Shown here piece by piece: positions 17-49,553 of a stretch of DNA of 49,618 bases. The notes beneath the pieces were generated by a model. That model had not been told where the DNA came from and did no database searches. It saw only the letters and a list, made by a program, of their open reading frames with translations. The DNA lies in IMG/VR virus record IMGVR_UViG_3300032087_000961, positions 1 to 49,618 of that record. One strand, given 5' to 3'. Every line of letters starts with the position of its first letter. Within the stretch, counting starts at the first letter, position 1. The position numbers and the translations under genes are program-made. Source of the stretch: a virus.

Positions 17-18
17 AG

Positions 19-30952: not shown

Positions 30953-32410
30953 CTATGTCTTTACTAATAACTCTGTTGCTGAAATGGCAGTCCCTGCCAG
31001 TACACTTGGGCTATCCGCTGTTGTGCTTATCGTTCCATCTGTCTGTACGTAATATTGTTGCCCTGCGGTGAGGCTAGATTGCTCATCATTTACTGCACCA
31101 ATAATATCTACAGTTGCACCCTTGGTGTCAGCTACAGCGCCACCTTTGGACATACCGATATAGTTCTCTGAGGTAATGTTTGTAGAAGTAAAACCTGTTG
31201 TAAACACTCTAGCAGTTCCATAATTACTGTTGTTTGCATCACGATATGCAAGAACAACTTTTTTCTGATCTGCGTCATATGCAACGTCTGGTTCATTAAA
31301 ATTTGTGGAGGTAAAACTTGTAGCGGTTTCAAAAGATACAGAAGTTCCACTTACAGTAGCTGGAATTAAAAAACCTGAATATGGACTTGTAGTTATATTT
31401 CTGTAAACAATAACATGTCTTTGTGCATTAGCATCATAAGCTATTTGACTAGAGTCCGTCATGTTCTCAGCATAAACGGCTGAACTACCAAAAGAAATAG
31501 AAGTTCCGCTAACCGTTCCTACTATCGCTGTACCATAATAATTATTGCCTTCATCCATATATGCAATTAAAACTTTTTGGGCGATAGGATCATAAGATAT
31601 ACCAAAATTATTTGAGTTAGCACTATTAAAAACTACTTCAGTGCCAAAGCTAATATCTGTTCCTGAGACAGTGCCCACTATAGCTGTGCCATAACTACTA
31701 TTAGCTATGTCCCTAAAAGCAATTACCATTTTTTGTGCGTTTGTGTCATATACTATCTCATTCTCATTGGTGCTTCCTCCGCTGTTGTAGGTAACAGCAG
31801 TACCAAAACTGATAGAAGTTCCACTTACAGTTCCTACTCTAGCATTACCTCTGTTTGAGTTACCACCATTTCTACAACAGACGACTACTTTATTGTTCGT
31901 TGAATCATAAGCCAAACCTATATGAGATACCTGTGCCGTAAGAAAATCAGTGGTGCTGCCAAAACTTATAGACGTACCGCTAACCGTCCCTACAATAGCA
32001 ATTCCGTAACCACTGTTACCTTCAAAAGCAAAAACTATTTTTCCTGAATTAGTATCAAAAACAGTTTGGAGGTTATTTATTGCTGAAGTATTGTAAAAAG
32101 TAACAGGCGAACCAAAACTTATACTATCACCAGAAACAGTTCCTACCACTGCTTTGCCATAATTAGAGTCACCACCATCTCTATAACCGACAACTATTTT
32201 GTCATTAGCTGTATCATAAACTACAGATGTAGATGAAGCATTTGCTGATTCGTAAACAACTCCAGAACTAACAGATTGAGTAACAACTGTTTCACTTACA
32301 ACACTCACCGTCCCATCAGAATTTACAATCACTGGCTTACCGCTTGGCAGTGTGCCACTGGCTACCGCTTTAAACTCACCACTTTCTTCAGCACCTATAC
32401 GCTTTAACAT
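30953..32410 (-). CDS. Seven-repeat beta-propeller fibre protein, third paralogue
   Basis: The 485-residue protein starts MLKRIGAEESGEFKAVASGT. It has seven repeats (residues about 57-407) with cores such as YDTNAQKMVIAFRDIANSSY and GTAIVGTVSGTSISFG, and the C-terminal module NITSENYIGMSKGG, QYYVQTDGTIST. The stem ends GVVYESA, which supplies the last strand of blade seven (velcro). Its first codons match the cut gene at the left window edge. It lies directly upstream of the short-tail hub gene, so this copy could belong to the short-tailed phage. Confidence 0.75.
   Translation of the reverse strand: MLKRIGAEESGEFKAVASGTLPSGKPVIVNSDGTVSVVSETVVTQSVSSGVVYESANASSTSVVYDTANDKIVVGYRDGGDSNYGKAVVGTVSGDSISFGSPVTFYNTSAINNLQTVFDTNSGKIVFAFEGNSGYGIAIVGTVSGTSISFGSTTDFLTAQVSHIGLAYDSTNNKVVVCCRNGGNSNRGNARVGTVSGTSISFGTAVTYNSGGSTNENEIVYDTNAQKMVIAFRDIANSSYGTAIVGTVSGTDISFGTEVVFNSANSNNFGISYDPIAQKVLIAYMDEGNNYYGTAIVGTVSGTSISFGSSAVYAENMTDSSQIAYDANAQRHVIVYRNITTSPYSGFLIPATVSGTSVSFETATSFTSTNFNEPDVAYDADQKKVVLAYRDANNSNYGTARVFTTGFTSTNITSENYIGMSKGGAVADTKGATVDIIGAVNDEQSSLTAGQQYYVQTDGTISTTADSPSVLAGTAISATELLVKT
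31190..32242 (-). repeat. Seven-unit propeller repeat array
   Basis: Seven units of about 50-53 codons can be aligned on YD....K.V...R..GNS.YG and VSGTSISFG. The units share protein motifs but vary in codon choice, as in the other two arrays. Confidence 0.78.
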
Positions 32411-32412
32411 AG

Positions 32413-32631
32413 TTACCCTTTCACGATAAGTTTAGTTGCCGATACAGCCGTTCCTGCAAAGACGCTAGGACTATCAGCCGTTGTACCTAGTGTGCCATCC
32501 GTCTGAACGTAGTAGCTTTGCCCTGCCGTTAGTCCTGAGAGGTTGTCGGCTATTGCACCTTGCGTATCTATGATAGCCCCTGCTGTGTCTGCTGCACCAC
32601 TACGAGCTATGCCTATGTAGTTTTCTGAGGT
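32413..32631 (-). repeat. Diverged direct repeat, copy 2
   Basis: This is the counterpart of 19-237. The identity is about 94 percent by eye, higher than in the flanking cassette genes. It continues in both copies through the stop and the start of the next gene (MLKRI). Confidence 0.75.
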
Positions 32632-32766
32632 TAGATTAAGACTAGTAACAACACTGACAGTACCATCACTATGTATAACAACAGCCTTGCCATTAGTTAT
32701 TGCGCCACTAGCTACAGCGTGTTCCTGTCTTGGTAAATTCTGATCATTGCCTATGACACGCAGCAT
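32413..32766 (-). CDS. Propeller-less fibre stem paralogue
   Basis: The 117-residue protein joins the family's N-terminal stem (MLRVIGNDQNLPRQEHAVAS) straight to its C-terminal module (NLTSENYIGIARSGAADTAG, SYYVQTDGTLGTT). The junction is at SVVTS, where the 484-residue paralogue has its seven blades. It is intact, so it is a designed or stable short form and not a frameshifted remnant. The C-terminal 73 codons match 19-237 almost base for base. The propeller appears to be a removable module. Confidence 0.78.
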   Translation of the reverse strand: MLRVIGNDQNLPRQEHAVASGAITNGKAVVIHSDGTVSVVTSLNLTSENYIGIARSGAADTAGAIIDTQGAIADNLSGLTAGQSYYVQTDGTLGTTADSPSVFAGTAVSATKLIVKG

Positions 32767-32771
32767 TATTG

Positions 32772-33035
32772 TTACTCTCCGTCATCCTCTGAAGGGTCTA
32801 CCCAATCAGGATTAGCTGACCAGGTTGTGCCGTCAAAGAAATACTTGTTGCCTGTCCAATCGTTGGGTGCGTTGGTGACATTGTCAGTCACTGTAACTGT
32901 GGTACTATTGAGGTCAGCAATAATAAACTGGGCTGGATCACCTACAGTTATTTCGGTTGCCGTTGCAGTTATTGTTACATCATCAGCAAGTAAATATTTG
33001 CTCAGACCTGTTGATGTTTCCACAATAGTTTTCAT
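32772..33035 (-). CDS. Small fibre-cassette protein, second copy
   Basis: The 87-residue protein has the same start (MKTIVETSTGLSKYLLADDV) and layout as 1480-1746, with about 85 percent DNA identity by eye. The acidic tail differs (DPSEDDGE). It is the second member of the siphovirus-side fibre cassette. Function unknown. Confidence 0.7.
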   Translation of the reverse strand: MKTIVETSTGLSKYLLADDVTITATATEITVGDPAQFIIADLNSTTVTVTDNVTNAPNDWTGNKYFFDGTTWSANPDWVDPSEDDGE

Positions 33036-33049
33036 CTTCTAATCCTTTA

Positions 33050-33412
33050 TCAATTATCATCAATTTCTTCATAAGAACATACAGCAGATAAATCGCCAGC
33101 TACACTTGCTTGAATTTTTAGTATATCACTTTCTAATAAATACAAGCCCATGTTTTTATCTATTGGCAATAAAGAACTACCAGCAGAAACTGTAATATTT
33201 TTGGCTATGTAATAATCTACACTTGAGCGAGTTATCCATACAGATATATCAGCAGAGTTAGTACCATCTATATTTGCTATGATAAGTGAATTTATTTTAA
33301 GTAACTTATTTGATGCAGCGGTAAGTAAGCTAACTGCACTAGCAGCAACATCAGCATCTAAAGCTGTATTGGCATAAATGCTACTTACCGAAACTATATT
33401 TGGATTTGCCAT
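33050..33412 (-). CDS. Conserved fibre-cassette protein (MANPN family), second copy
   Basis: The 120-residue protein (MANPNIVSVSSIYANTALDA) is the homologue of 3252-3614. Eleven residues differ by hand alignment, mostly conservative. In this cassette it is followed directly by the MKTIV gene, without the extra propeller gene that lies between them on the left. This shows that propeller genes can be gained or lost in the cassette. Confidence 0.72.
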   Translation of the reverse strand: MANPNIVSVSSIYANTALDADVAASAVSLLTAASNKLLKINSLIIANIDGTNSADISVWITRSSVDYYIAKNITVSAGSSLLPIDKNMGLYLLESDILKIQASVAGDLSAVCSYEEIDDN

Positions 33413-33427
33413 GCAAAAACTCCTTTA

Positions 33428-33775
33428 TTATCCAAATACCATAGCAAAAGCTATAGCTTGTCCAGTTGTTGCAGCTTGACTAATATCAGTAGCCGTTGCG
33501 GTAATCATTACTTTAGCCGCGCCAGCAAGAGTAATAGCATTATCACTGTTACTGCTTTCAGAAACCGTTCTGGTTAATGTAGTTCCACTATGAGTATATA
33601 CACCAGTGCCAATTTCAAAATTACTACCTTCTTCTATCAGGTAACGTACCGTGTCACCATCAGAAACACCGCCACCAGCAAATGTTTGATAACCACTTTC
33701 CGCTGATCCAAGCGTAATAGTGCCAGTTCCAGTTGTGGCCGTAGCAACCTTTACCCGATTTGCTAAAACAACCAT
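33428..33775 (-). CDS. Fibre protein with shared AMVFG tail
   Basis: The 115-residue protein starts [20 protein letters not shown] and contains [20 protein letters not shown] and [20 protein letters not shown], a phage fibre beta motif (YLIEDG...WEIG.GVYT) that I have often seen next to tail-tip genes. Its last 14 residues ([14 protein letters not shown]) match the end of 3630-3860 with two changes, although the rest differs. It is a mosaic fibre protein. Confidence 0.65.
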
Positions 33776-33783
33776 GTTTCACC

Positions 33784-34221
33784 TTATGCTAACTGAATCA
33801 CACCATTAGACGCTGAGAAATCAACTGTTAAGCTATCACCATCATTAAGTGTTAGAGATGATCCATAATCATAATATCCTATTAATGGATCGGCTGGTGT
33901 GGTTACAGTATCATCAAATATGTAAACATATCTAAATGGGCCTGTAGAACCGCCAGAAGAAGTAAGCGTTAAATCAGCAAGAACAAGCTTATATGTACCG
34001 CTTGTTTGACTAGATGATGATGTGGTTACATTTCTAGATGATAAATTAGTATATGATACTTGTGTAACATTACCTAATATACCGTTTCCATCTGCTGAAG
34101 GATCAGAACTTTCTGAAGATGGTGCTGTATTTGATAAAGCAATAGCAATCTGATCGCTTTCTAAATCCATGTTGTGAACTGCATTTTTCACAAAGTCATT
34201 AATCTTATTAAATGTTGCCAT
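33784..34221 (-). CDS. Tail/fibre-associated beta protein
   Basis: The 145-residue protein starts MATFNKINDFVKNAVHNMDL and contains IAIALSNTAPSSESSDPSAD and LTLNDGDSLTVDFSASNGVI. It has the same overall plan as 4520-4906 and similar proteins near siphovirus tail tips. It is probably a minor tail protein that links the tip to the fibre cassette. The 66 bases upstream hold two AATGCGTT copies and an AACTCC/GGAGTT pair, with no clear promoter. Confidence 0.62.
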   Translation of the reverse strand: MATFNKINDFVKNAVHNMDLESDQIAIALSNTAPSSESSDPSADGNGILGNVTQVSYTNLSSRNVTTSSSSQTSGTYKLVLADLTLTSSGGSTGPFRYVYIFDDTVTTPADPLIGYYDYGSSLTLNDGDSLTVDFSASNGVIQLA

Positions 34222-34287
34222 TTTGGGAACTCCATTTTTTTAGCATATGCAAACGCATTGTAACGCATTTTTTCGGAGTTGCAAAGT

Positions 34288-34677
34288 CTAGGATGGTTTA
34301 TCTGGAAAATTTGGATTACCTGGATCACTTGTATTTGACGGCAAGTCTCTTAGCGTTTGACGATATGTAGCCCATTCAGCTTTTTTACTATCACTTAAAG
34401 GGCTGTCTAAAGTTTGCGTCCAATCAGATTGACTTAGTAGATTATTACGCTCTGATCGGACGTCTTCCATCAATGTTTCATTACGTTCGTCATCTGTTTC
34501 TGCTATGCACAATCCATCTACAACTTTAACATATTTAACAGAATTACTATCATTTGGAGCAGCAATTTTTGACATTATTCCGATTTCATTTGCTGCTATT
34601 AAATTATCTGCTTCAGCCTCAGTTTTAAACTTTGAGACAATATAACCGCCATTATTCAAATAAACAAAATAATTCAT
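34288..34677 (-). CDS. Phage tail-fibre assembly / TAC-like protein
   Basis: The 129-residue protein has a short beta start (MNYFVYLNNGGYIVSKFKTE). The C-terminal signature RNNLLSQSDWTQTLDSPLSD, followed by KKAEWATYRQTLRDLPSNTS, belongs to the phage_tail_APC family (PF16778, from memory) of fibre-associated proteins. It overlaps the J-like gene by 4 bases. Confidence 0.75.
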   Translation of the reverse strand: MNYFVYLNNGGYIVSKFKTEAEADNLIAANEIGIMSKIAAPNDSNSVKYVKVVDGLCIAETDDERNETLMEDVRSERNNLLSQSDWTQTLDSPLSDSKKAEWATYRQTLRDLPSNTSDPGNPNFPDKPS

Positions 34678-37637
34678 TGTATCACCGCTATTGCAAAAGC
34701 ACTTCCATTGACTGCAAATCTTCTCGCACTAGTCGCTGTCATGGATACACTAACTGATGTTCCACTAGACGAAATACCTTTTAAGTGAGTTAGATTAGTT
34801 TGATGCGGCACAAAACCAAGTGCATGGGAAGTGCCGCCAACATTCAAGGTTATATCTGCTTGATATGGATTACTGCTTGTGCTGGAAGTTTGCTCTATCC
34901 GTCCAGAAAAACCAACTATTACGGCTGACCCACTTGTTAATCCTGACAACGTTACTGAAAAAATCGTTTGATTATATATTTGGGAACTCCCAATGTAAGT
35001 ATAGCTTACATCGGTGGTGTTTATATCAGCGATACCAGCACCAATAAATCTCGCAGCACTAATAGTACCAGCAGTTATCTTATCAGCACTTAAATCATTA
35101 ATTTTAGCGTTGGTAATTAGTGCATCATTTATTTGTGCTGCACTTGTAATAATACCTGACGTACTGAGCAAACCACCCGTAATTGTATTAGCTGCAATCT
35201 CATTGCCTGTAATTGTACCAGCTTGAATATTTGTGGCTGTAACTGCATTGGCCGCAAGTTTTGGTGTAGATATTGCACCATCAGCTATCTCAGTTGCAGT
35301 AATAGTACCAGCCCCTACATCAGCAACTATTTCAGCCCAAGCTGAACCCGTCCAATGATATAATTTGTTATCACTAGTGAGAAAAACTTGCTGGTTTACA
35401 TAATCACCAGATGCTGGAAGTGAACTAACTGGTTCAATAATGTCTAAACCAGCATCTATAAAAATCTGTCTGATACCATTTTCAAAATCAGCATCATCTA
35501 AATATGTAGTAGTAGCAGAAACACCAGAAGTAAAAGCCGATTTATTACCAGAATAATCAACTGATTTAAGAAAGTAATACCTAGTCTGATTTAAGCCTAA
35601 ATTCGTTCTAGTAAAAGTATCTCCACCAGACGTACCAACCAATGTTGACCCAGATGAATTATTGACAGTATTTTCGTAGATTTCTACAAAATTTAAATCA
35701 GCGTCTGCTGGATTTGTCCAATCAATAGTAATAAATTTAAAACCACCAGTAGCAGATATAGAAGTTGGAACGGCTGGTGCAGTCGTATCACCGCCACCAG
35801 TAAATAGAACTGTAGAATATGCCCCTTTATTACCTTGTGAACCTACAGCCCTAACCCTGATAGTGTACTGAACACCGTCAACTAATGGGGAAACTTCAAT
35901 ACTATTTTCTATTGTAGTAGTCGAATTATAAACGCTATCTGCTACAGCTTTCCATTCAACTTCATAATGATCTACAAATTTATTATTTACAGCCGTCCAG
36001 GATAATATGACGGAATTTATAAAAGTGCCATCACTAGTTGTTCTACCGCCACCAGATGCAGTAAGATTATTTATAGCTAAACCGTCAAAGACATTTGGTA
36101 AAACAGTATTATCTTTCTCAAAGTCTGTTTCTTCTGCTGACCAGCTAAAGACGCTTTGGGTTAGCTCCCTAAGTGTCATATTTACGATTAATTCGCCTGT
36201 ATCCTTGAACGCAAAAGCCCATCGCTGCACCTCAAACGTCTTAGCACTAAATCCTAGTCTAGAATTAGTAATGCTAATTACATCACCAACTTGAACGCCT
36301 AAAGCCCGTAAACCAAAATCAGCAGTAATGGTAAGCTGCTGTCTATTTCTATATAAAGCAATTTTGGCAATACGTTGCGCCATAGAATGACTAGACGTCA
36401 TGGGTAATCTAATATCAGCAGAACTTTCTATGCCACCGTCAGCAGTGATAAAAGTAGATGATTTGACTTCTGTATAATCAGTTTCTTGCCAGTTACTACC
36501 AGCGCCACGCCATGTACCTTTAACAATATTGAAATTATCACGCCTACTATGACGTGTACTAACTTCTATATTTGATCTTAAATCATCTTCATCAAACGTC
36601 TTAACTGATGCAGTCCAAGCTGCTGCTTTCATTCTCCACTCACCTTGAGCAAACCATAACAAGCCACCCATTGAACGGGCTAGGGTATCCAGTATATCTT
36701 TGGGCTGTGAAGAAGTTACAAATGAGCCATTAGTTTCATATCGGTTTTCAGTGCCTGATCCAGCTAGTGTAACATTCTCATCACATATGTTTGCCGCTGT
36801 AGAAACTAAAGTGTCATCAATTTCACTGGCGTTTGCGTCCAAACCATATCCAGAAAATAGATAATCCCGTAGACATAAGGCTGAATTAGCTGACCAGCCA
36901 GTTGTAGATGTTCTAGGATCATAGACCTTTTTCCCTCTCACTAAGGCCGTAAAAACTGGCTGACCTGTTGGAAATACATCAGCGTCATATTTAAGCCTGA
37001 CATAAATATAAGCTATTCCTGACAGCTTGTGGTCAGTTGTCCAAAGACCATCACTTTCACTTACTAAATCACTATCAGCTGATTGCGCTGCTGTCCCAAC
37101 ATGCGTATTAACCCTAACAAAGCCATTATATCTTGTTGTGGTATTGCTATCAGGATCAGTAGCGTTTGTTACTTCACCATCACCATCAAGCGTCAATTCC
37201 CATTCATCCAGATATATCTTTTGGAAGCTATCTACTTCATGGCCAGCTACGGCAATAACTTTATGCAAATATAAATTATCGTCAGTTGCTTCTGTATATA
37301 CAACAACACCACCAACCTTAGTTTCACCGTATATTATTTGATGTGGCGCTGCTGGGTTTACTGCATTTACATCATATCCACGACCAGCATCACCAAGAGA
37401 CGGTTTTGGTGTAAGAGCATTAAGAGCAAAGCCAATAGCTGCATTTATAAGAAATTGTCTAGCAAATGTGCTGAATACAAATGAAGTGGTAAAATATGCT
37501 GTTGTTGTTGCAGCCGCGCTAATTCCAGCAATAGCAATATTTATTGGGTCTTGGGGAATATCTCTTTGGAATGACTTAGGGCCGAATGGCATCTGGTCTA
37601 AAAATGACTTGCTTTTATATAATGCTCGTAAAGTCAT
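34674..37637 (-). CDS. Tail tip / central fibre protein (gpJ-like) with FN3 domains
   Basis: I choose ATG 37637, coupled as TAATG with the NlpC-like gene, giving 987 residues. The N-terminus has NAVNPAAPHQIIYGETKVGG, VVVYTEATDDNLYLHKVIAV and GHEVDSFQKIYLDEWELTLD, which is the lambda J hub pattern. The middle has ADIRLPMTSSHSMAQRIAKI. Two FN3-type domains lie at about 535-730 (HYEVEWKAVADSVYNS, PTSISATGGFKFITIDWTNP). The C-terminal coil repeats AISTPKLAANAVTATNIQAG. It forms the tail tip and host contact of the siphovirus half. Confidence 0.88.
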   Translation of the reverse strand: MTLRALYKSKSFLDQMPFGPKSFQRDIPQDPINIAIAGISAAATTTAYFTTSFVFSTFARQFLINAAIGFALNALTPKPSLGDAGRGYDVNAVNPAAPHQIIYGETKVGGVVVYTEATDDNLYLHKVIAVAGHEVDSFQKIYLDEWELTLDGDGEVTNATDPDSNTTTRYNGFVRVNTHVGTAAQSADSDLVSESDGLWTTDHKLSGIAYIYVRLKYDADVFPTGQPVFTALVRGKKVYDPRTSTTGWSANSALCLRDYLFSGYGLDANASEIDDTLVSTAANICDENVTLAGSGTENRYETNGSFVTSSQPKDILDTLARSMGGLLWFAQGEWRMKAAAWTASVKTFDEDDLRSNIEVSTRHSRRDNFNIVKGTWRGAGSNWQETDYTEVKSSTFITADGGIESSADIRLPMTSSHSMAQRIAKIALYRNRQQLTITADFGLRALGVQVGDVISITNSRLGFSAKTFEVQRWAFAFKDTGELIVNMTLRELTQSVFSWSAEETDFEKDNTVLPNVFDGLAINNLTASGGGRTTSDGTFINSVILSWTAVNNKFVDHYEVEWKAVADSVYNSTTTIENSIEVSPLVDGVQYTIRVRAVGSQGNKGAYSTVLFTGGGDTTAPAVPTSISATGGFKFITIDWTNPADADLNFVEIYENTVNNSSGSTLVGTSGGDTFTRTNLGLNQTRYYFLKSVDYSGNKSAFTSGVSATTTYLDDADFENGIRQIFIDAGLDIIEPVSSLPASGDYVNQQVFLTSDNKLYHWTGSAWAEIVADVGAGTITATEIADGAISTPKLAANAVTATNIQAGTITGNEIAANTITGGLLSTSGIITSAAQINDALITNAKINDLSADKITAGTISAARFIGAGIADINTTDVSYTYIGSSQIYNQTIFSVTLSGLTSGSAVIVGFSGRIEQTSSTSSNPYQADITLNVGGTSHALGFVPHQTNLTHLKGISSSGTSVSVSMTATSARRFAVNGSAFAIAVIQ

Positions 37638-38068
37638 TATGTGACACTCCAAAATATATCAGGCTTTTCTGTAGGTAAGAATACCAAACCTTTGTCGCCA
37701 ACAAAAGCCGCTAAATCAGACACTACCACACCAAGCGCAATCGGTAAAACTACTTTATCTTCACCCATATCACGGCCAACGATAGTGCCTCTAGGTGGAT
37801 ATTCTGTATATATTCTGGTCAATCTGCTATCTACAGCATCAAGAAAATCTTTGTATTCTGATCGTGTATTGAATTTTCTATATTCTACCAAAGCATTTTT
37901 TGCACTGTCGTATCTGTGTAAATACTCATCACAAAAACCGCTTCCTATCTGCATCTGAACACACGTATTAGCAAAAGTTAAACAATCGTGATAGCCCCAC
38001 TCAAAAGGCTCATCTTGCACTGTTTCTATATAATCAAATAATCTTTTATCCCAATCTACCAACTTCAT
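37637..38068 (-). CDS. NlpC/P60-like tail-tip protein (DUF6950-like)
   Basis: The 143-residue protein has the catalytic-type motif FEWGYHDCLTFANTCVQMQI with the cysteine at about 29, and later VVSDLAAFVGDKGLVFLPTE. The same motif is found in small cysteine-peptidase-like tail proteins, equivalent in place to lambda gpK. A role in tail-tip assembly or local peptidoglycan cutting is inferred. It overlaps the next upstream gene by 4 bases. Confidence 0.78.
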   Translation of the reverse strand: MKLVDWDKRLFDYIETVQDEPFEWGYHDCLTFANTCVQMQIGSGFCDEYLHRYDSAKNALVEYRKFNTRSEYKDFLDAVDSRLTRIYTEYPPRGTIVGRDMGEDKVVLPIALGVVVSDLAAFVGDKGLVFLPTEKPDIFWSVT

Positions 38069-38628
38069 TCACTGGTTTTGCCCCAAGCTACTACTTTATT
38101 TTGCAAACTATCGACAAACTGTAACCCTTTATCAGTTGTCACACCTAAACCTGATAATCTTGCTTGTTGGCTTTGATCTGTAAAACGTAAAACTCTAGGA
38201 CGTTCTAAATCTACTAATCTATTTTCTACAGTCAGGGTTACAGTGCAAGTATCTGGCCCTTCATCAATTACCATTTGATCCATGAAGCCCTGAAATACTT
38301 CTGAGCTATCACCGCCTACAATACCGAAATAAATAGTGCATAGACGGCCCTGATAAGCCTCAGTAAGTGCATCTGATAGGATTGATGAAGGTATACCGCT
38401 TAAAACCAATGTAGCACCTTTAGCGGCTATCTCAGCCGTTTCTTCAATATTGCTGATAGAAAGTAAAGTACCAGCCCCAGTGTATGTATTAGAGCTAATA
38501 GTTAAGTCACCAACACCCGTCCAAAGCCTAAGGTTTCCACCGTCAAAAGCCAAATCAACAGCCATGTAAGGTTGTACAACTTCACCGTCTAAAGCAGTTG
38601 TAATTGACGATTGTAAGTCTCTTGACAT
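38065..38628 (-). CDS. Minor tail protein (tail-tip component)
   Basis: The 187-residue protein begins MSRDLQSSITTALDGEVVQP. It has LRLWTGVGDLTISSNTYTGA, LSISNIEETAEIAAKGATLV and GIPSSILSDALTEAYQGRLC. This LW-G-G-L-----Y-GAG...I....E....A pattern is common in alphaproteobacterial phage tail-tip proteins (DUF2163-like position). It precedes the NlpC-like gene as in lambda L-K order. The exact role is unknown. Confidence 0.68.
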   Translation of the reverse strand: MSRDLQSSITTALDGEVVQPYMAVDLAFDGGNLRLWTGVGDLTISSNTYTGAGTLLSISNIEETAEIAAKGATLVLSGIPSSILSDALTEAYQGRLCTIYFGIVGGDSSEVFQGFMDQMVIDEGPDTCTVTLTVENRLVDLERPRVLRFTDQSQQARLSGLGVTTDKGLQFVDSLQNKVVAWGKTSE

Positions 38629-39221
38629 TAGATAGCCTCTATTGCGCTAAAACTAATATTATAGAAACCATCTGAACTAATATCCCAATTCTGTTCATTA
38701 GACGCCAATCTAAATCTACTTTTAGGATATGTTAAATCACCAGTTGCTGTAGATGCGGCTTCTCTTAATGACGGCCAGATTTCCAATGTGCCATCGCCAG
38801 TTTTATCTAGCGTCACTTGATATAGCCTAGTGCTTGCTCCACTACCTAATGAAAAATAGTCACCTCTTAGTAGGGTAGCAGTGCCACTATTTAAATCAGC
38901 CGTCACGCTTGTATCTCCAGCAGAACCTGTAATAGTTAATGATGTGGCCGTACCTTGTGGACTATCGGCTAATGGTGGCCCTAATAAAAACGTACCATAT
39001 TGACCACGTAAGGCATTAAGCCAACCCGTCCATTTTTCAGCATTAGCTTCATTCATAGGTGGTAAAGTTAAATCTGCTTCCCAGCACATACCAGCGTGAG
39101 CAACGACTTGTTGAGCCATACTAAATGGTGATCGTGATACAGAAACCACATTTCTAGCTCTGAATGATATGCTTTGGATACCAGTGTGAGTTGGTAAATC
39201 TAGTGGATAAGATATAGCCAT
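38628..39221 (-). CDS. Minor tail protein
   Basis: The 197-residue protein has the start YPLDLPTHTGIQSISFRARN, then WEADLTLPPMNEANAEKWTG, LRGQYGTFLLGPPLADSPQG, and LEIWPSLREAASTATGD. Proteins with WLNALRG..GTFLLG next to tape measure and tip genes are frequent in alphaproteobacterial phages. It fills the distal tail role (lambda M-like position). The gene overlaps its neighbours by a single base. Confidence 0.7.
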   Translation of the reverse strand: MAISYPLDLPTHTGIQSISFRARNVVSVSRSPFSMAQQVVAHAGMCWEADLTLPPMNEANAEKWTGWLNALRGQYGTFLLGPPLADSPQGTATSLTITGSAGDTSVTADLNSGTATLLRGDYFSLGSGASTRLYQVTLDKTGDGTLEIWPSLREAASTATGDLTYPKSRFRLASNEQNWDISSDGFYNISFSAIEAI

Positions 39222-40624
39222 TAGCCAAATGCAGCCGAATAGCTGCCCCCTCTACGTCTTGCGTCTAATACTGCTGATTTAGAAGCTTCTACTATTTTAG
39301 GAAGCATAGACTGTATTTCAGAACGGCTTACACCCTCTTGAAAGTTATTGTATTGATTTATCACAAGCCCCTGACCGCCAAGCTTATTATTTGGTATAAT
39401 ATGACCTGATCTATGTGGTACTAATATTTCTGGGCCTCGCTCACCAACTATTGTAGCCCTACCACCAGTTACAGGCCCACCCATAGCGTTAGCTGGTAAT
39501 GATGGAATAGACTTCATTAGCATACCAACTAAACCAGTACCAACACCCGTTTCAGCGTTAAATGAGCCTACCAGACGCTGTACTACCAGCACTTTATACA
39601 ACTGAGCTATTATATCTCTAGCCATAGACCTAAAAGCGTCTTTAACTGATTTAGTGCCTGTTGAGATAGCCATAAACCCTTCTTCTAAGGTTGATTTCAT
39701 AGTATCAGCAAACGCTTGTGTACGTTTTTGCATGGCTTCTATAGCGTCTTTATTAGCTTTATCTACCATTTTGAAATACTTGCGTATGTCGATAAATTCC
39801 ATACCTTTTAAATCAGTAAATATTTGCTTAAAGATATTCTGATTTTTGTCCATTGTTTCACCAGCATCAAAGATAGCATCTTCTAGTAAAGCTATCGTGG
39901 CTGTTAGTGCTTCAACTTTTGTTTGTTGCTCTTGTATTCCATCAACTTCCACTATTAGCCCAGACAATTCTGGTGAAAGACGGGCTGCGTCTTTTACTTG
40001 CTGCATAAACTTTTTTACTCTAGTACCAACAAGTTCAGCCCTTAATTGTGCTATCTCTAAATGCTGCATCAGACGGGTTAGTACAGTTCCAGCCACTGTA
40101 GCCATTGCCTGTAAAGCATTTATTATAGCGTTAATTGAAAATATTAAGGCTTCTTTTACAGCGTCAAATGCAATTTTTAACCCATCAAGTATTGGCCTTA
40201 AACCCTCAAACGCTGGCTTTATATCAGCAAAAAACTGTTTAAAGTCGAATGATACACTTTTTGCGCTTTTACCCATCATAGCAATCGCACCACCAACAGC
40301 TATAATACCACCAATAATCATACCTTTAGGGCCAAAGATAGATGCTAACTGTGGGCCTTGCATGGTCATAATCCGTAGTGCATCCGTACCCATAGAAGCC
40401 TGAACAGCCATATCTTGAAACTGTAATGATGCTAAACCTAATCCACGGGTAAGACCCATATTAGACCGCACAACTTGATGTGTAGCCCGTGTATGACGCT
40501 GCATAACTTGGGTAGTTTGCGTCATTTGTCGGTTGACGTTACCTAGTTGCTGCTGAACCTTTTGCATTTGAGGAACAGCGTTACCAACTGCGTTCATTTC
40601 AAACGTAAGTCTTTCAGTGGCCAT
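39221..40624 (-). CDS. Tape measure protein (short)
   Basis: The 467-residue protein has an N-terminal helical coil (MQKVQQQLGNVNRQMTQTTQ), a hydrophobic Gly-rich segment (GPKGMIIGGIIAVGGAIAMM), long helices (LMQHLEIAQLRAELVGTRVK) and the terminal PVTGGRATIVGERGPEILVP found in many tape measures. Length sets the tail length. 467 residues would suggest a short flexible tail of roughly 70 nm, if 0.15 nm per residue applies. Its ATG overlaps the end of the G/GT frameshift product by 11 bases, as in lambda. Confidence 0.85.
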   Translation of the reverse strand: MATERLTFEMNAVGNAVPQMQKVQQQLGNVNRQMTQTTQVMQRHTRATHQVVRSNMGLTRGLGLASLQFQDMAVQASMGTDALRIMTMQGPQLASIFGPKGMIIGGIIAVGGAIAMMGKSAKSVSFDFKQFFADIKPAFEGLRPILDGLKIAFDAVKEALIFSINAIINALQAMATVAGTVLTRLMQHLEIAQLRAELVGTRVKKFMQQVKDAARLSPELSGLIVEVDGIQEQQTKVEALTATIALLEDAIFDAGETMDKNQNIFKQIFTDLKGMEFIDIRKYFKMVDKANKDAIEAMQKRTQAFADTMKSTLEEGFMAISTGTKSVKDAFRSMARDIIAQLYKVLVVQRLVGSFNAETGVGTGLVGMLMKSIPSLPANAMGGPVTGGRATIVGERGPEILVPHRSGHIIPNNKLGGQGLVINQYNNFQEGVSRSEIQSMLPKIVEASKSAVLDARRRGGSYSAAFG

Positions 40625-40766
40625 TCTTTTCCCGTTCCTCTTTTATTTTAAAATATGCGACCCACTCATTATATTCTGAATATGTCATTTCTTCAATTTC
40701 TGATATTGTCTTACCCAAATGTTCAGCAAGTGAAATGAGACTATATCTAAATGGATCGCTCCTTAG
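40614..40766 (-). CDS. C-terminal part of frameshifted tail assembly chaperone (GT)
   Basis: This frame is open without its own start. It begins right after the slippery site in the -1 frame and adds LRSDPFRYSLISLAEHLGKT, then ISEIEEMTYSEYNEWVAYFK and IKEEREKNGH (50 residues) to the 114-residue G protein. The EMTYSEYNEW segment is typical of gpT-like chaperone ends. The fused product (164 residues) would bind tape measure and tail tube subunits, as GT does in lambda. Its end overlaps the tape measure start. Confidence 0.82.
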   Translation of the reverse strand, partial: LRSDPFRYSLISLAEHLGKTISEIEEMTYSEYNEWVAYFKIKEEREKNGH

Positions 40767-41107
40767 TTTTTTTCCTGTTCCTCGGCTGTAATGTTTTCAA
40801 ATATAGCGCCAAATACAGTGGCAATAGTTCCAATAGTTTCACCCATTAAAACAGGTTTATCTTCTAGTGTGAAAACCTTTTCACCGTCTTTATCTTCACA
40901 CTTTCTAATAATTAATTCTACCATTCCTGACATTGTGGGATTTGTCAGAAAGTCTTTATTTTTACGCTGTAGAAATTCAATATCACGGGCTGTAATATAA
41001 TTAAAGAATAGGGTAAGGGGCTTATCATCCTCGCCCCATTCTTCAATATCTACTTGACCGCGTTCTTTATCAGCCCTTTTAGCTGCGATACGTTTTGCAA
41101 GTGTCAT
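40763..41107 (-). CDS. Tail assembly chaperone G
   Basis: The 114-residue protein has KRIAAKRADKERGQVDIEEW, LFFNYITARDIEFLQRKNKD and EKVFTLEDKPVLMGETIGTI. It lies between tail tube and tape measure genes, and ends at AAC-TAA immediately after a heptamer A AAA AAC. Position, size and slippery site identify it as the lambda G-type chaperone that is also made as a -1 frameshifted GT fusion. Confidence 0.8.
   Translation of the reverse strand: MTLAKRIAAKRADKERGQVDIEEWGEDDKPLTLFFNYITARDIEFLQRKNKDFLTNPTMSGMVELIIRKCEDKDGEKVFTLEDKPVLMGETIGTIATVFGAIFENITAEEQEKN
40766..40772 (-). promoter_or_regulatory. Programmed -1 frameshift slippery site
   Basis: The leftward mRNA reads GAA AAA AAC TAA. The heptamer A AAA AAC is a classic X XXY YYZ slippery site in the right frame, one codon before the G stop. 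Slipping back one base opens the 50-codon extension at 40614-40766. Confidence 0.85.
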
Positions 41108-41115
41108 AGTCCTAC

Positions 41116-41517
41116 TTATACAGTTGTTTCAGTTAATGCCCCATCACCTTGCACTGAAATGGTCATTTCTACAAGCCCATCAAATGTAGAATTAATAGTG
41201 CGTCCAGTAACAATAGCTGTACCACTGTAATAAGTATCACCAGATGTTGCACCTTCTGGATATAGATTTAGGGTTACAGATGCTCCAGCAGTAAGGGCCG
41301 TTTGGCCACCAGTATTGGTTTCATCCCAAAATACGTCAATTGAACCCGTAAACTGTTTTAGTGAAGCTACATAAGTCCTAGAGCTATCACCCATGCTAGT
41401 CGTTTCAAGTGTGTCGGCTGTTTCTTCGATGCTAAATGATCGAATTTCTGCTATTGCTGTGTCAGAACCAGCCGTGCCGACTTTGACCGTCCCTTCACTT
41501 CCTGTATGTGTTGCCAT
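41116..41517 (-). CDS. Major tail tube protein
   Basis: The 133-residue protein has MATHTGSEGTVKVGTAGSDT, IAEIRSFSIEETADTLETTS, MGDSSRTYVASLKQFTGSID and FDGLVEMTISVQGDGALTET. The ETADTLETTSMGDS...TGSID segment is typical of siphovirus tube proteins. It lies directly upstream of the G/GT pair (lambda V position). It stacks to form the tail tube. Confidence 0.85.
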   Translation of the reverse strand: MATHTGSEGTVKVGTAGSDTAIAEIRSFSIEETADTLETTSMGDSSRTYVASLKQFTGSIDVFWDETNTGGQTALTAGASVTLNLYPEGATSGDTYYSGTAIVTGRTINSTFDGLVEMTISVQGDGALTETTV

Positions 41518-41529
41518 GTCGGTTACTCC

Positions 41530-41973
41530 TTATTTGGCTGTTTCTACATCATTTATTGCTGTAACATATCTGATTGAATAAGTCAGCTTTGCAATACCTA
41601 ATATTTGGTCAGCTTCACCGTCAAATTGTATTTCAGTAGATGTTAAAACACTAAATTTAGCAAGACCGTTGACCGTAAAATCTCCAGCCATTGCCTCCTC
41701 GACTTGGACGGCTATTGCGTCCACATCATCATCGAACTTGCTTGTTTCACGAACATATATATCTATGTCTAACGTCAAGTCTCTGATAACGTCCGTAACA
41801 CCAGCGTTCATTCGCTCACTGGCTTCAGCCCCAGTATATACGCTTATAGCTGGTAAGTTTTCTTCATTGAATGGGTGTACCCTAGTAGTAAACACACGTC
41901 TTTTCACCAACGATACGTTTTGGCTTAGTAGAGTTGCTACCCTATCCCTTATCTGGCGTCTTACGTGTGCCAT
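41530..41973 (-). CDS. Tail terminator / minor tail protein U-like
   Basis: The 147-residue protein has MAHVRRQIRDRVATLLSQNV, TRVHPFNEENLPAISVYTGA, LTLDIDIYVRETSKFDDDVD and TSTEIQFDGEADQILGIAKL. This matches the lambda gpU pattern (R..IRDAV...L, LPA..VY...E) in size and position between the joiner and tube genes. It caps the tail. Confidence 0.78.
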   Translation of the reverse strand: MAHVRRQIRDRVATLLSQNVSLVKRRVFTTRVHPFNEENLPAISVYTGAEASERMNAGVTDVIRDLTLDIDIYVRETSKFDDDVDAIAVQVEEAMAGDFTVNGLAKFSVLTSTEIQFDGEADQILGIAKLTYSIRYVTAINDVETAK

Positions 41974-42288
41974 CTACTGCTTTTCCAATTGAATAACACT
42001 AACACCAGTTCCATCGTGGATATAAGCTACAACGCGATAATTTACACTATCTACAACTAGGAAATCATCTTCTGCTATATTGGGTATATCAGTGGTTCTA
42101 CAGGTAAATCGTGGCTGTTCCTGATGTACAGCAGCTATACCGCCAGCATCAACAGGAACAGTTTCGTTATCAAATATTCCCTTTATTGTGCTATCACCTA
42201 AACCCAACTTACGCTGATAAGTCACAGATTTTGCAAACTCCTCAACATTAAGCAGTAAGGTAATATCATCAGCAAAAGAAATAGCCAT
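41974..42288 (-). CDS. Head-tail joining protein (FII-like)
   Basis: The 104-residue protein (MAISFADDITLLLNVEEFAK) has VHQEQPRFTCRTTDIPNIAE and VDSVNYRVVAYIHDGTGVSV. A beta-rich joiner with a -Y-V-----DGTG--- end is the lambda FII pattern, about 117 residues there. It starts and ends with single-base overlaps or gaps to its neighbours. Confidence 0.72.
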   Translation of the reverse strand: MAISFADDITLLLNVEEFAKSVTYQRKLGLGDSTIKGIFDNETVPVDAGGIAAVHQEQPRFTCRTTDIPNIAEDDFLVVDSVNYRVVAYIHDGTGVSVIQLEKQ

Positions 42289-42503
42289 TAATCATCACTT
42301 TCTGGCTTTTCTAATTCTTCATCGGATTTCTTTAATCCGACACTTCTATTGCTTTTCTTGGGTGGCTTTGGCTTATCTGCTGGTTCAGCATAACCACGGT
42401 CAATTAACTTCTGGCCAATTCTGTCCATTACTTCATATTCCTCACCAGCCATAAGGTTTTCACCCGTTCCAGCAAAACACTTCTGTATAACTTTAATTTT
42501 CAT
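42288..42503 (-). CDS. Small capsid-module protein
   Basis: I choose ATG 42503 (MKIKVIQKCFAGTGENLMAG), which follows an AAGGA site, giving 71 residues. It contains AGEEYEVMDRIGQKLIDRGY and a Pro/Lys-rich charged end. It is similar in plan to 19420-19656 of the other half. It may be a head completion or decoration protein. The function is unknown. Confidence 0.55.
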   Translation of the reverse strand: MKIKVIQKCFAGTGENLMAGEEYEVMDRIGQKLIDRGYAEPADKPKPPKKSNRSVGLKKSDEELEKPESDD

Positions 42504-42557
42504 TTGTGTTTCCTTCATTGGCTTAAAAGTGGGGCATTGCTGCCCCACCTATTAATA

Positions 42558-45206
42558 TTAAGCTACTGATACCTCATCAGTGATACCAAAGCTTACAGCG
42601 TTTCTAACACCTACGTCTAGTTCAGCATGAAGAACCATTCTCACAGTTCCAGCTTTTGATCCACTGTATGGGTCAACTAGGATGCTTGGAGCGCCAAACT
42701 GAGCAATCATCAACTGGCTAAAATCACCAAAGATCAATGCTGAAGCGTCATTACCACCATCACCTGGGTCTAGTGTTGTTGGTACGTTTGATGTGAACTC
42801 AATTGGATAGCCATAAAGGTTATTCCACGGGTCATTCAAGATCATGACGCTATCAGTTGAAGATACTTTCGCTGTTGAAGCTAGTTTAGCTTTAACTGCT
42901 GGATGTGATAGGAAGCCAGCAGCATTACCATTAACAATGCCATTATCTTCCTCAACCAATTTCACTAGGTTGATAATGTCAGCCCAAGTAAGAGCATCAA
43001 CATCAGTACCTGTTGAAATATCTAGGTTGTTTACACCAGATGTATTTAAAATACCTGTTGGCTGACCGCTAGAACCAGAACCTTGAATTGCATAAAATTC
43101 AGTTCTGTCGGCTGCTGAAGCAAGTAAGTCATTTCTGATTATTTGCTCAATAGCTGGTACACTTTCCAACATTAACAAACGTGACATATCAACAAATGCA
43201 CCCATTGTTCTTGGCTGCAATGTAACACCACCGTCTGTTCCAGCACCATCGCCAACATCTGCTAATTCTTCTACAAATGCAGCATTAGCGCCAGTTGCTA
43301 GTTTTGGCATTTTAATTCTGTTGGTTAAACCACTTAGGTAAGTTGTTCCTAGACCGCCTAGAACTTGTCTAGCACGTAGCGCCTCAATGAACATATCACC
43401 ACGGTGTTCAGTTGGTACGAAATCATCAAATACAACTTCTGAACCTGAACCGCCAGTAGCTGCTGTTGATAACGGCCCTCGTTGCCCCCATGCAAAGTCA
43501 GGTACATAAACACCTTCTGCATCGCGGCCAACACGTGTGGCTATTTCATCATTGATTTCACGCTCGTAGCCAGCCTTACGCCAATCGCCAGTAATTTGAG
43601 CTTGGATCATTCTGCCAAGAGAATAACTTTTTTGCTCTTTTACTGGAGCGTCAACTTGTGCTGGAGCAATGTCTAGTGGCTTATCACCAATAGCATCAAG
43701 CAAATTACCACGGAATTGGTCTACTGACATACCGCTTGCAATTGCTTCATTACCTAAGTCGCGTTTATTATGCTTGGCTGCTAATGCCAAGATTTCAGCA
43801 TCGTTCTTTCTTGCGGCTCGAACTGCATCAGCTTTAACCGCGTCAAGATCAATGTCGTTTTTGACTTCTTCAGTCATAACTTCATCTCCTTCAGATGTTT
43901 GAGTTAAGGGTTCTGCTGGAACTGATCGTCCGACACCAACAAGACTTGACTGATCTGCTGGTACACTAACAATACTAATTTCCATTGGTGTGGTAGCAAC
44001 CCTGTAGTATTCTTCAGGGTCATCATCACGTTTTATTCGGCCATCAATTCGATAGCCTACACTGATGTTTTGTCTGATGCCATCAGTAACATCATTGAAC
44101 ACTTCTGAAGCTAGTCCACCTTTTCCAAAACGAACCATTGCCCGTAGACGTCGAGCATCTTCATCAAGTTCAACTCCTTCAATCACGCCAATTTGCTTTT
44201 CCATGTCATGATCTAATAACAATGGAGCGCGACCACTATTCAGAAAGTCTAAATTCATATTATCACGGGAATGGTCTATAACCTCCATCCCAAATGATCT
44301 TTCTACAGGTTCTTCTGTAGATACACCGACTTTTACACGTCTTTCATCAATATCAACGGCTTTTTCATCCATGTAATGGCCGCGTCTTTCCATATCTTCA
44401 CGTACAAATCTTTCTTCTTCTGTCGGAGCTTCTGCTTCAGTTTGCTCACCCATAGGCTTGGCGAAAGTAACAATATAAGCTTCTTCAGTTTCTTCTATAT
44501 TTATGACATGACGCTTTTTCATCGGCTCAGACCCTTTTTCATTTAGATCAATTGTATCATTTTTTTCATCCATTGTAACATCCCTTTTCTTTGATGACAT
44601 CGGATGACCTGATGGAAGTAAATCAGTGTCATGCTTGCCACTTCTAAATTTACCATTCCGCAAAGCATATAAATAACTGTTGACACGGGCATAAGCCCAT
44701 TGTTCAGGCGATTTAACACTTGGTCTTACGCTTTGTGGATTAGTCTTATATGCACCAATACCGCGATTAAATACAGATATTAGCGTTCTAGTGGTAGTAC
44801 GTTTAGACGCAACATTACCAACATCTTTATTATGATCTTCTGCTTTTTTAGCTAAACCTTTACGCACTGCATCAGTTACAGCCCTAGTTTCATCCTTTTT
44901 TATTCTATTCCGTATATTTTTTGACCAAGTAAAGCCAGCATTACCGCCCCATAAAGCCCATGCTATACGCCCGTTAGATGGATAACCTTCTTCACCTTGT
45001 TCAAATCCTTCAGCTTGCTTATCAACTTCATGCCGACTAAAAAAAGAATACATACGTAAAACAGTATCTTCTGATAGATTTTTACCACTAACAATATCCC
45101 TAGCACGGGCAATACCTACAGCCGTGCCACCTCTACCATGCTCAGATCGCCAATCTAGACCGCGCTGGGCTTCTGTTACCATTCCTTCAGTCGGCTTATA
45201 ACTCAT
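42558..45206 (-). CDS. Tripartite fusion: N-terminal domains, S78 prohead protease, HK97-fold capsid
   Basis: The product is about 882-885 residues (numbers from the 45215 start). The 45206 start is used because GATGAGTT overlaps the portal stop. Residues about 12-105 are a GLDWRSEHGRGGTAVGIARA domain with IAWALWGGNAGFTWSK. About 130-205 is a DUF5824-like domain (FNRGIGAYKTNPQSVRP). About 300-430 is a Peptidase_S78-type protease with LLLDHD (H336), QNISVGYRI (S385) and PMEISIVSVPAD (E412). From about 530 it is an HK97-fold capsid (SYSLGRMIQAQITGDWRKAG, LLASAADRTEFYAIQGSGSS). A linker with KNDIDLDAVKADAVRAARKN may act as scaffold. The protease probably releases itself during maturation. Confidence 0.85.
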   Translation of the reverse strand: MSYKPTEGMVTEAQRGLDWRSEHGRGGTAVGIARARDIVSGKNLSEDTVLRMYSFFSRHEVDKQAEGFEQGEEGYPSNGRIAWALWGGNAGFTWSKNIRNRIKKDETRAVTDAVRKGLAKKAEDHNKDVGNVASKRTTTRTLISVFNRGIGAYKTNPQSVRPSVKSPEQWAYARVNSYLYALRNGKFRSGKHDTDLLPSGHPMSSKKRDVTMDEKNDTIDLNEKGSEPMKKRHVINIEETEEAYIVTFAKPMGEQTEAEAPTEEERFVREDMERRGHYMDEKAVDIDERRVKVGVSTEEPVERSFGMEVIDHSRDNMNLDFLNSGRAPLLLDHDMEKQIGVIEGVELDEDARRLRAMVRFGKGGLASEVFNDVTDGIRQNISVGYRIDGRIKRDDDPEEYYRVATTPMEISIVSVPADQSSLVGVGRSVPAEPLTQTSEGDEVMTEEVKNDIDLDAVKADAVRAARKNDAEILALAAKHNKRDLGNEAIASGMSVDQFRGNLLDAIGDKPLDIAPAQVDAPVKEQKSYSLGRMIQAQITGDWRKAGYEREINDEIATRVGRDAEGVYVPDFAWGQRGPLSTAATGGSGSEVVFDDFVPTEHRGDMFIEALRARQVLGGLGTTYLSGLTNRIKMPKLATGANAAFVEELADVGDGAGTDGGVTLQPRTMGAFVDMSRLLMLESVPAIEQIIRNDLLASAADRTEFYAIQGSGSSGQPTGILNTSGVNNLDISTGTDVDALTWADIINLVKLVEEDNGIVNGNAAGFLSHPAVKAKLASTAKVSSTDSVMILNDPWNNLYGYPIEFTSNVPTTLDPGDGGNDASALIFGDFSQLMIAQFGAPSILVDPYSGSKAGTVRMVLHAELDVGVRNAVSFGITDEVSVA

Positions 45207-46695
45207 CTGCGTCACTCACTTCTGGCTGAACAGGTGCTTTAGCGCCAAATGGTTCAAATGCAGTCGATAGGCCATATCTTTCAGCCATTTCTTTATCAGA
45301 AGCTATCTGACTAAATAATTCTTCTACATCCCTTCCATAATTTGCAGCTATATCATTCATGCTCACAATACCGTTAGATAATGCTGTTACGTGAGCATTT
45401 ATCTCTCTTTGTGGATCAACCCAAGCAAAGCCACGGCCGCGAAAATGCAAGTTATCAGCAAATTTATCATACTTAGATATTGGTATCGGTATATCACCAA
45501 AAGATAATGCACTTTCTAGCCAGTTCCTGAATACTGGCTCACAAAAGTGTTCTATTATATATGATTGTAGTGTTTTGTAATGATCGCGTTCCTCAATAGT
45601 GCCTTGACGTATAGAACTATACGAAACACCCTTTAGATCATTTGATAAGCTTGTATAAGATACGTTTAAACCAGACGCGATACCGCGTAATACGGCCTGT
45701 TCAAATTCAGCAAATGCAGAAGTTGGATGGGCTGGATCAATCATCTTGAAATCATGCCCTGATGGTAACTGATAAACAGAAGCTGGAGTCATATCAATTA
45801 CAGGCACTTCATCATCTGTTTCATCATCACCAACAAATTCATCACCGTCTGGAGTGGTAATAATACCAAACTTAGCAGCCGCAGCCCTAGCAGCAACTAA
45901 CTCAGCTTCTCTATATCCATGCAACATCTTTAATGATGCTATTGCTGGAGACATAAACGGCTCACCTCTAGTTTGGTGCATCCTATTCTGTATGAATAAA
46001 TGTAATATTTCATTCGCTGGTACTCGAATATGTTTACGTTCAGCACCTACCGCAAAATTTAATGTATCATTTGGATGAGCCGTAAGAACATAATATGCCA
46101 CTGGCTTATGATATTCGTCTAGCTCCACACCCATTCTAATCTGGTTGCCATTTGCTGCTTTACCATTTTTATCTTGGTCAATCAGTTCAGCTTCAATAAA
46201 CTGCAATGCAAAACCGTCTCTAAATCGTCTATTTTGCACAAACTTAATAAATACTTCACCATCACGGGCTAACGTCTCACAGACATATCTTTGGCAATCC
46301 AACCAAGACATACGCCCACTTACTTCACAATTACCTAATCTTCCCCAAGCCTTAAACGCATTTTCTAGGATTGTATTACCAGCAGCGTCTAATGATCTAT
46401 CATCATTTGTAGCTCTGACCTGTAGTGTGAAGCCTTTTTCACCGACTACATTCGTTCTGATTAGGTTAAGAAATCTTTTTGCATATTCGTTATTTCTAGC
46501 TAAATCACGGCTTCTATTGCGTAAAACAGGCAAACTTGCACGTAATTCACTATCTGCTGATGAACTAGAACCAATGAAATCACTAAATAATCGACCTTGG
46601 TTAGCTCCAGCGTAACTTCTACGTCTTTTCCTACCACGCTTAACTAATTCTATATCGGCTTGTCTTTGTGGTAATAGAAAATCAAACAAGCCCAT
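45196..46695 (-). CDS. Portal protein (lambda gpB-like)
   Basis: The 499-residue protein has SYAGANQGRLFSDFIGSSSS, SRDLARNNEYAKRFLNLIRT, NVVGEKGFTLQVRA, WLDCQRYVCETLARDGEVFI and GLNVSYTSLSNDLKGVSYSS, with RQGTIEERDHYKTLQ after it. These are lambda-family portal hallmarks (ARDL.RNN..A.......NVVG.G). It lies directly after the W-like gene and before the protease-capsid gene. It is unrelated to the portal at 21919-24063. Confidence 0.92.
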   Translation of the reverse strand: MGLFDFLLPQRQADIELVKRGRKRRRSYAGANQGRLFSDFIGSSSSADSELRASLPVLRNRSRDLARNNEYAKRFLNLIRTNVVGEKGFTLQVRATNDDRSLDAAGNTILENAFKAWGRLGNCEVSGRMSWLDCQRYVCETLARDGEVFIKFVQNRRFRDGFALQFIEAELIDQDKNGKAANGNQIRMGVELDEYHKPVAYYVLTAHPNDTLNFAVGAERKHIRVPANEILHLFIQNRMHQTRGEPFMSPAIASLKMLHGYREAELVAARAAAAKFGIITTPDGDEFVGDDETDDEVPVIDMTPASVYQLPSGHDFKMIDPAHPTSAFAEFEQAVLRGIASGLNVSYTSLSNDLKGVSYSSIRQGTIEERDHYKTLQSYIIEHFCEPVFRNWLESALSFGDIPIPISKYDKFADNLHFRGRGFAWVDPQREINAHVTALSNGIVSMNDIAANYGRDVEELFSQIASDKEMAERYGLSTAFEPFGAKAPVQPEVSDADEL

Positions 46696-46696
46696 C

Positions 46697-47281
46697 TTAG
46701 AACCTCATTAATATAGTTGATGATGTTTTGCGGCCATGCTTTACATCAATCTTACGTTTTATAGCTTTTACTTCACGCCTGTAGTAATCACGCCAAGTTA
46801 ATAATTCATCAGGTGACATTTTGGTAAGTGACCGTCCAGCAATGCTATAACTACTCAAATCACCGTCAGCACGGTTTTCTAATACAGCTTCAATCTTATT
46901 AAGCATCTTTTCAGCGTGATCCCGTGGATCACTAGAAACGTCTAGATCAGGCCCAACATCTATTTCACCCGTATCAACAATGATCCTAGCACTATCGCTA
47001 TTACGTAAAACCTCTAGCTGGTAGTGATAATGACCCTCATTATAATCATCAGACGTAGTTGAAAGTATTGTAAATAGGTAATCATCATCAGACGCTGTAG
47101 CGGTGACACTAAATTCATTAGCTGTGCCAGTCGCTGATCTAGCTAAGAATGTAACCGTATATGCTGTGTTTGGGTAATCAGTGCCTAATGTCGTGTTTTT
47201 CCATTGGACAAAATCACCAACGGTAAAGCTTCTAGGTATTTCAGTTGGTGCATTTGTCGCGTCAAATAAATTAGCCATCAA
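46697..47281 (-). CDS. gpW-like head-tail joiner with N-terminal beta domain
   Basis: The 194-residue protein has a C-terminal segment (YSIAGRSLTKMSPDELLTWR, DYYRREVKAIKRK) that is the gpW-like motif (I.GRSLT..S...L...RDYY.REV). Lambda W is only about 68 residues. Here about 110 additional N-terminal residues form a beta-rich domain (FTVGDFVQWKNTTLGTDYPN, AYTVTFLARSATGTANEFSV, YHYQLEVLRNSD), similar to Ig-like phage domains. It lies between terL and portal, as W does in lambda. Confidence 0.78.
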   Translation of the reverse strand: MMANLFDATNAPTEIPRSFTVGDFVQWKNTTLGTDYPNTAYTVTFLARSATGTANEFSVTATASDDDYLFTILSTTSDDYNEGHYHYQLEVLRNSDSARIIVDTGEIDVGPDLDVSSDPRDHAEKMLNKIEAVLENRADGDLSSYSIAGRSLTKMSPDELLTWRDYYRREVKAIKRKIDVKHGRKTSSTILMRF

Positions 47282-49126: not shown

Positions 49127-49553
49127 TTAATGCGTCTTTCATGTTCATTTCTATTAATAACTTAGCTTCCTTGACATTAGCACTAGCATGGACTTCAGCA
49201 GCTATTTTTGACGGCAAAGCTAATAACTTAGTCTTAGCCTTTAATAATTGCTTCTCAAAGTCTTTAGCCACCAATTCAATATAGACTAGATCACCACGTT
49301 CTATAGCGTTTTCCATCTCTTTTGCATCAGCTTGTTCTTTAGCAAGCCTAGCACGTTCAGCACCTAAGTCTAAATCACCAGCCGCAGCCCTACCAGATGC
49401 AATAGCCCTAAAATGCTTAATATATTCGGCTCTTACTTCATCAATATTGTATTTACCACGTGGTTTTTTAGTTATTACACCATCGTCAATTAGCTTTGAT
49501 AAAGCCTGTTGTGATGTGTTCAAATGTTGCGCTACGTCGGCTAGTTTTGACAT
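49089..49553 (-). CDS. terS: Terminase small subunit, Nu1-like
   Basis: The start is ATG 49553 (MSKLADVAQHLNTSQQALSK), giving 154 residues. The winged helix-turn-helix is LADVAQHLNTSQQALSKLID followed by GVITKKPRGKYNIDEVRAEY. A long helical segment follows (LDLGAERARLAKEQADAKEM). This matches lambda Nu1-type small terminases (DNA binding, then dimerisation and partner helices). It is the first gene of the lambda-like late module. Only 65 bases remain to the window edge. Confidence 0.82.
   Translation of the reverse strand: MSKLADVAQHLNTSQQALSKLIDDGVITKKPRGKYNIDEVRAEYIKHFRAIASGRAAAGDLDLGAERARLAKEQADAKEMENAIERGDLVYIELVAKDFEKQLLKAKTKLLALPSKIAAEVHASANVKEAKLLIEMNMKDALSDLVGYGKQAAE

Follow-up and report, generated by a model that had tools for sequence, protein, structure and literature searches.

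The window analyzed here is the entire 49,618-nt viral record IMGVR_UViG_3300032087_000961. Positions 32413–32766 of its minus strand encode S117, a propeller-less protein of 117 residues whose base domain is uninterrupted. S117 occupies the second slot of a gene cassette whose order is common to many contigs, namely a fibre-like gene, a 120-aa gene, slot 1, an 87-aa gene, slot 2 and slot 3, and slot proteins fall into three size classes of about 117, 460–510 and 740–890 aa. The S117 copy, all on the minus strand, comprises the 120-aa gene (33050–33412), the 87-aa gene directly before slot 2 (32772–33035), S117 itself and a 485-aa slot-3 protein with one propeller (30953–32410); slot 1 is absent and slot 2 is empty. 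Upstream stands a 115-aa fibre-like protein (33428–33775, minus strand), the last 13 residues of which match the motif [ST]TGKAIAMA[MI]VFG that ends the fibre-like gene before the cassette. This motif precedes the cassette in nearly all phages, and a fibre gene ending in it lies directly 5′ of 19 of the 20 distinct 120-aa genes. A second copy of the cassette, also on the minus strand, consists of a 76-aa fibre-like protein ending in TTGKAIAMAMVFG (3630–3860), a 120-aa gene (3252–3614), a 495-aa slot-1 protein with one propeller (1750–3237), an 88-aa gene (1480–1746) and a 484-aa slot-2 protein with one propeller (19–1473), whose blades span approximately positions 244–1320.

The record is almost certainly a chimera of a podovirus, phage A, and the left arm of a siphovirus, phage B. 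By profile recognition, large terminase, portal and major head protein are each present twice in the window. The podovirus-like phage A part (1–31282) shows end-to-end identity to the independent contig IMGVR_UViG_3300031974_000143, which spans 31,282 bp, equal to window 1–31282; both of its 10-kb end stretches are 100% identical to the reverse complement of that part, and it carries phage A genes only, with the A portal present and the B portal absent. Three relatives of the lambda-like phage B part (32413–49618) share its genes from the terminase as far as the 115-aa gene, at 95–100% identity for the most part, and have none of phage A. None of 25 related records contains both portals; ten have a strong A portal, the B portal occurs in seven, and a further three show only weak matches to the A portal (E about 1e-7). 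The start of the J gene lies 11,966 from the contig end in the window and 11,966–11,971 from it in three B relatives, and because these distances agree, position 49618 is probably a true genome end. The contigs behind L125, L128 and L129 start at most 5 nt from the position matching the right end of the window, which suggests a fixed genome end in B-type phages. At the other end, position 1 lies 16 nt inside a gene whose start resembles the slot-3 gene, so phage A is probably circular, with a genome of ~32.4 kb.

The join between the two phages must lie to the right of position 31282, most likely inside or beside the slot-3 gene, and leaves no mark in composition. The backbone homology of the 115-aa gene region to the B relatives ends at 33486–33495. 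An exact 30-mer across the border between phage B and the cassette has no further copy in the viral collection, and this border is thus without support from another assembly. B-type phages can nevertheless bear such a cassette behind the 115-aa gene, as one does in L213. Contig ends seem to pile up in slot-3 genes, with IMGVR_UViG_3300031974_000143 and IMGVR_UViG_3300031841_001065 both breaking at approximately residue 377 of the slot-3 protein. Metagenome assemblers may join different phages through conserved blocks between variable heads, and, the record being chimeric, inferences that its two halves share one genome are unsafe. Elsewhere in the window, an 885-aa protein (42558–45215) has matches to head maturation protease families as well as to those of major head proteins and is apparently a protease–capsid fusion, its first 112 residues matching a family of unknown function; in phage A, a DNA methyltransferase is fused to a ParB-like domain (8856–10130).

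The preliminary description had taken the 484-aa protein for a paralogue and sibling of S117. Because the record is a two-phage chimera, we read it instead as the slot-2 counterpart from the other phage. Aligned to the 484-aa ORF (19–1473, minus strand), S117 is 76% identical over its first 116 nt and 95% identical over its last 219 nt (208/219), with one large gap, in frame. The AlphaFold2 model of the 484-aa protein (mean pLDDT 92) places seven 52-residue blades between residues 52 and 410, each with four strands and starting at residues 52, 104, 156, 208, 260, 312 and 364. These predicted positions indicate that the gap takes out the propeller and little else, in agreement with the earlier claim of a junction at the propeller borders without frame damage; the short ORF is real. 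In place of the propeller, S117 has a linker of about 8 residues (S38–L45). This is loop 1 (residues 38–45, SVVTSLNL; 32632–32655, minus strand), the site of the first propeller in homologs; loop 2 (residues 53–62; 32581–32610, minus strand) is the site of the second propeller in double-propeller homologs. For the C-terminal half of S117 the nearest sequence is the phage A copy, for the first half it lies in other phages, and window positions 1–237 and 32395–32631 are 95% identical.

S117 is modeled as a single compact beta domain (pLDDT 84, pTM 0.75; the best two of five models confident). What had been described as a stem and a C-terminal module are, in the predicted model and by PDB fold matches, two halves of this one small domain. 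Its top 12 PDB matches are all phage or archaeal-virus capsid or head-fibre chains (E from 1.3e-4, TMq 0.46–0.66), the best being decoration or cement proteins, HFTV1 capsid chains and the phi29 head-fibre base. Searching Pfam and PDB by sequence with S117 at default cut-offs returned nothing useful. Below the cut-off, PF09956 (Phage_cement_2) matches five of the six short proteins, in most cases along almost their full length, and a PF09956 search of 30 records gave matches mainly on slot genes; the scores, 12.1–23.2 bits, do not reach the gathering cut-off of 24 bits. A tblastn search with S117 against sequenced phages matched one record, and the genome collection held three weak relatives, all in metagenome-assembled genomes, with no reliable host.

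Judged from these models, the slot base domain is distantly like phage cement and head-fibre-base (beta-tulip) proteins, with the propeller nested in a loop. The beta-tulip set includes lambda gpD, phage 21 SHP, TW1 gp56, the HFTV1 capsid stabilisation protein and phi29 gp8.5, together with PF09956; in the HFTV1 study, the capsid stabilisation protein is likewise related to these proteins (PMC12494034), and the beta-tulip decoration proteins described are all trimers (PMC7602432). S117 resembles them in predicted fold, size and sub-threshold sequence match, whereas slot proteins differ from them in holding up to two loop-inserted propellers and in lying at a fibre locus. Among predicted viral proteins, an S117-like fold recurs, apparently uninterrupted, in many long fibre-like proteins. 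In the 1087-aa fibre-like protein of Marine virus AG-345-O18 (MH319759), the base domain is apparently interrupted by a propeller-like stretch much as in slot proteins but, unlike them, is embedded in one long protein with no three-slot cassette.

The likeness in fold to cement proteins and to the head-fibre base of phi29 raises the alternative that the slot proteins, among them S117, sit on the capsid as cement or head fibres and not on the tail, and some decoration proteins do bind cells via sugars (PMC7602432). We consider this the strongest competing explanation, although an unlikely one: in both phages and their relatives, the cassette follows a fibre-like gene and not a capsid gene, and similar domains occur within predicted fibre proteins. 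Moreover, a review lists the phi29 preneck appendage among the structural homologs of gpD (PMC7602432), so the gpD-like fold is not restricted to heads.

The propeller of the 484-aa protein matches PLL/PHL lectins and sialidases in fold (TMt 0.73–0.80 to PLL/PHL chains). The slot propeller, predicted to be seven-bladed, shares a propeller fold with the seven-bladed PLL/PHL lectins of Photorhabdus and with bacterial sialidases; unlike them, it is an insert within another domain, with ~11% identity. Sequence identity to PLL-type lectins is 8–12%, with no convincing PDB sequence match, and we found no described propeller insert of this kind in open-licence papers.

Propeller number is quantized at zero, one or two. 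In 124 related proteins, the spacing from the last conserved motif before the propeller to the first one after it is either 8–9 residues (n = 7) or at least 350 residues (the rest), with nothing between, a pattern that sets the gap in S117 apart from chance. In double-propeller forms, the second propeller follows the ENYIG strand, in the next loop, and none was seen with a filled loop 2 beside an empty loop 1. By sequence comparison, base domains are locked to their slots and propellers are not: 110 of 113 base domains have a same-slot best match, against 52 of 135 propellers (random expectation 46%). Across six bins of base identity from 50 to 100%, the median propeller identity of same-slot pairs is 42, 42, 42, 42, 44 and 48%. 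In contig L110, the gene directly after the 120-aa gene carries the first blades of the window's slot-3 protein (94.7% nt identity across 378 nt), preceded by a different N-terminus; the homology begins at residue 43, which corresponds to the S117 gap border. This gene, in the slot-1 position at 7743–8202 of L110, has a truncated and unusual N-terminus.

The bimodal spacing, the second-loop propeller, the slot-locked bases with unlinked propellers and L110 strongly support the proposal, made in the preliminary description, that the propeller is a plug-in module, and viral contigs include related phages both with and without blades at the same locus, the check proposed there. The other check proposed there, for short homologous sequences at the junction, gave no microhomology between propeller borders beyond chance. 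Exchange of propellers by homologous recombination in conserved flanks is plausible, because the block of ~330 nt from the C-terminal half of slot 2 to the start of slot 3 is ~89–93% identical between phages.

Empty forms are rare, with seven in the lineage of the window and two in a distant one. Scanning 2.9 million viral contigs for the short junction yielded four in addition to the window's own, and L288 and L289 came from a looser scan; of these six other short forms of the slot lineage, three (L021, L039 and L045) lie at contig ends. Complete in-frame short forms with flanking cassette or propeller genes visible occur in L289, which carries slot 1, an 89-aa gene, an empty slot 2 and slot 3, and twice in the L113 contig (G035). 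The distant MSNLSDLLP lineage, with about 27 single and 15 double forms, has two empty genes beside propeller genes on one 61.9-kb contig. In a base-domain tree of 113 columns, the seven short rows require seven changes, all forced by well-supported branches, and empty-form linkers are of five types; recombination can inflate the number of events, so a careful reading is at least five. Given the rarity of empty forms, their variety of linkers and their position within long-form clades, propeller loss appears to be recurrent. A single lineage of short forms is ruled out by the tree. Among the six short forms outside the window, the gene in L052 (9938–10321) has a slot-2-type start, where the frame is apparently shifted, and a slot-3-type end, and no slot 3 follows downstream; from its sequence, it looks like a recombination between slots.

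Alternatively, the short form could be ancestral in the lineage of the window, with long forms having gained propellers repeatedly. The apparently uninterrupted occurrence of the same fold in many phage fibre-like proteins would fit such a history, as would the short and long genes side by side in the MSNLSDLLP lineage. We regard it as improbable, because S117 clusters with long slot-2 alleles, among them L011, L013 and L018, in a well-supported clade (96/96), because the seven short rows need seven changes and because short forms are rare. Least probable of all, indeed very unlikely, is a chimeric-assembly artefact in which the assembler or a chimeric read joined the slot-2 start of one phage to the slot-2 end of another and dropped the propeller: the record is itself chimeric, the two window segments are 95% identical, the halves of S117 have different nearest relatives and three other short forms sit at contig ends, but a graph assembler could make such a join only through k-mers common to both halves, which have none beyond chance, the S117 linker is unique within the window, the 3′ half of S117 differs from the phage A copy at 11 of 219 sites and so is not phage A sequence, and in-frame short forms stand beside intact cassette genes elsewhere (L289, L288 and two in G035). 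The short state recurs at eight or more other sites in viral contigs, in three cases complete and in frame, which likewise disfavors a rare assembly deletion, the outcome that the preliminary description had named as fatal to its claim.

Set beside the observed anatomy, the quantization at zero, one or two propellers, the slot-locked bases with unlinked propellers and the recurrence of empty forms, our preferred explanation, which we hold to be probable, is that S117 is a propeller-free slot-2 allele in a mobile three-slot receptor-binding cassette of marine tailed phages whose propellers are exchangeable. Each slot protein would be a small beta domain with two neighboring loops, each able to hold a whole seven-bladed propeller. 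The base domain would set the place in the virion, and the lectin- or sialidase-like propeller would face outward and presumably bind sugar. By analogy with beta-tulip decoration proteins, slot proteins may form trimers, and they may dock on the fibre through its conserved C-terminal motif. Recombination in the conserved flanking DNA would carry propellers from one slot or phage to another. S117 would have lost its propeller or never received one, and as a headless subunit it most likely keeps its structural place without receptor binding; a role as fibre cap or spacer is plausible, and one as a landing site for new propellers would be a hypothetical third.

Like modular receptor-binding proteins such as tentaclins (PMC10743442), slot proteins would combine a conserved attachment part with a variable receptor-facing part. 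Unlike retroelement-diversified receptor-binding proteins, they appear to exchange whole propellers, and they are not DGR-like in that no reverse transcriptase was found in 25 records, many of them fragments. The cassette also differs from invertible tail-fibre cassettes, as no serine recombinase was found in the same 25 records; tyrosine integrases occur in seven.

More broadly, and with the balance tipping only slightly in its favor, unrelated podovirus- and siphovirus-like phages may share one scaffold of three bases with two loops each and zero, one or two propellers, in which each base descends with its slot, propellers pass freely from slot to slot and from phage to phage, and empty bases such as S117 are a regular but rare state. 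If so, marine phages would have a ready-made display scaffold, its base fixed and its binding heads exchanged whole, and receptor binding would be changed without a reverse transcriptase or an invertase. The empty allele would then offer a natural minimal base for structural work and for testing the role of each head.
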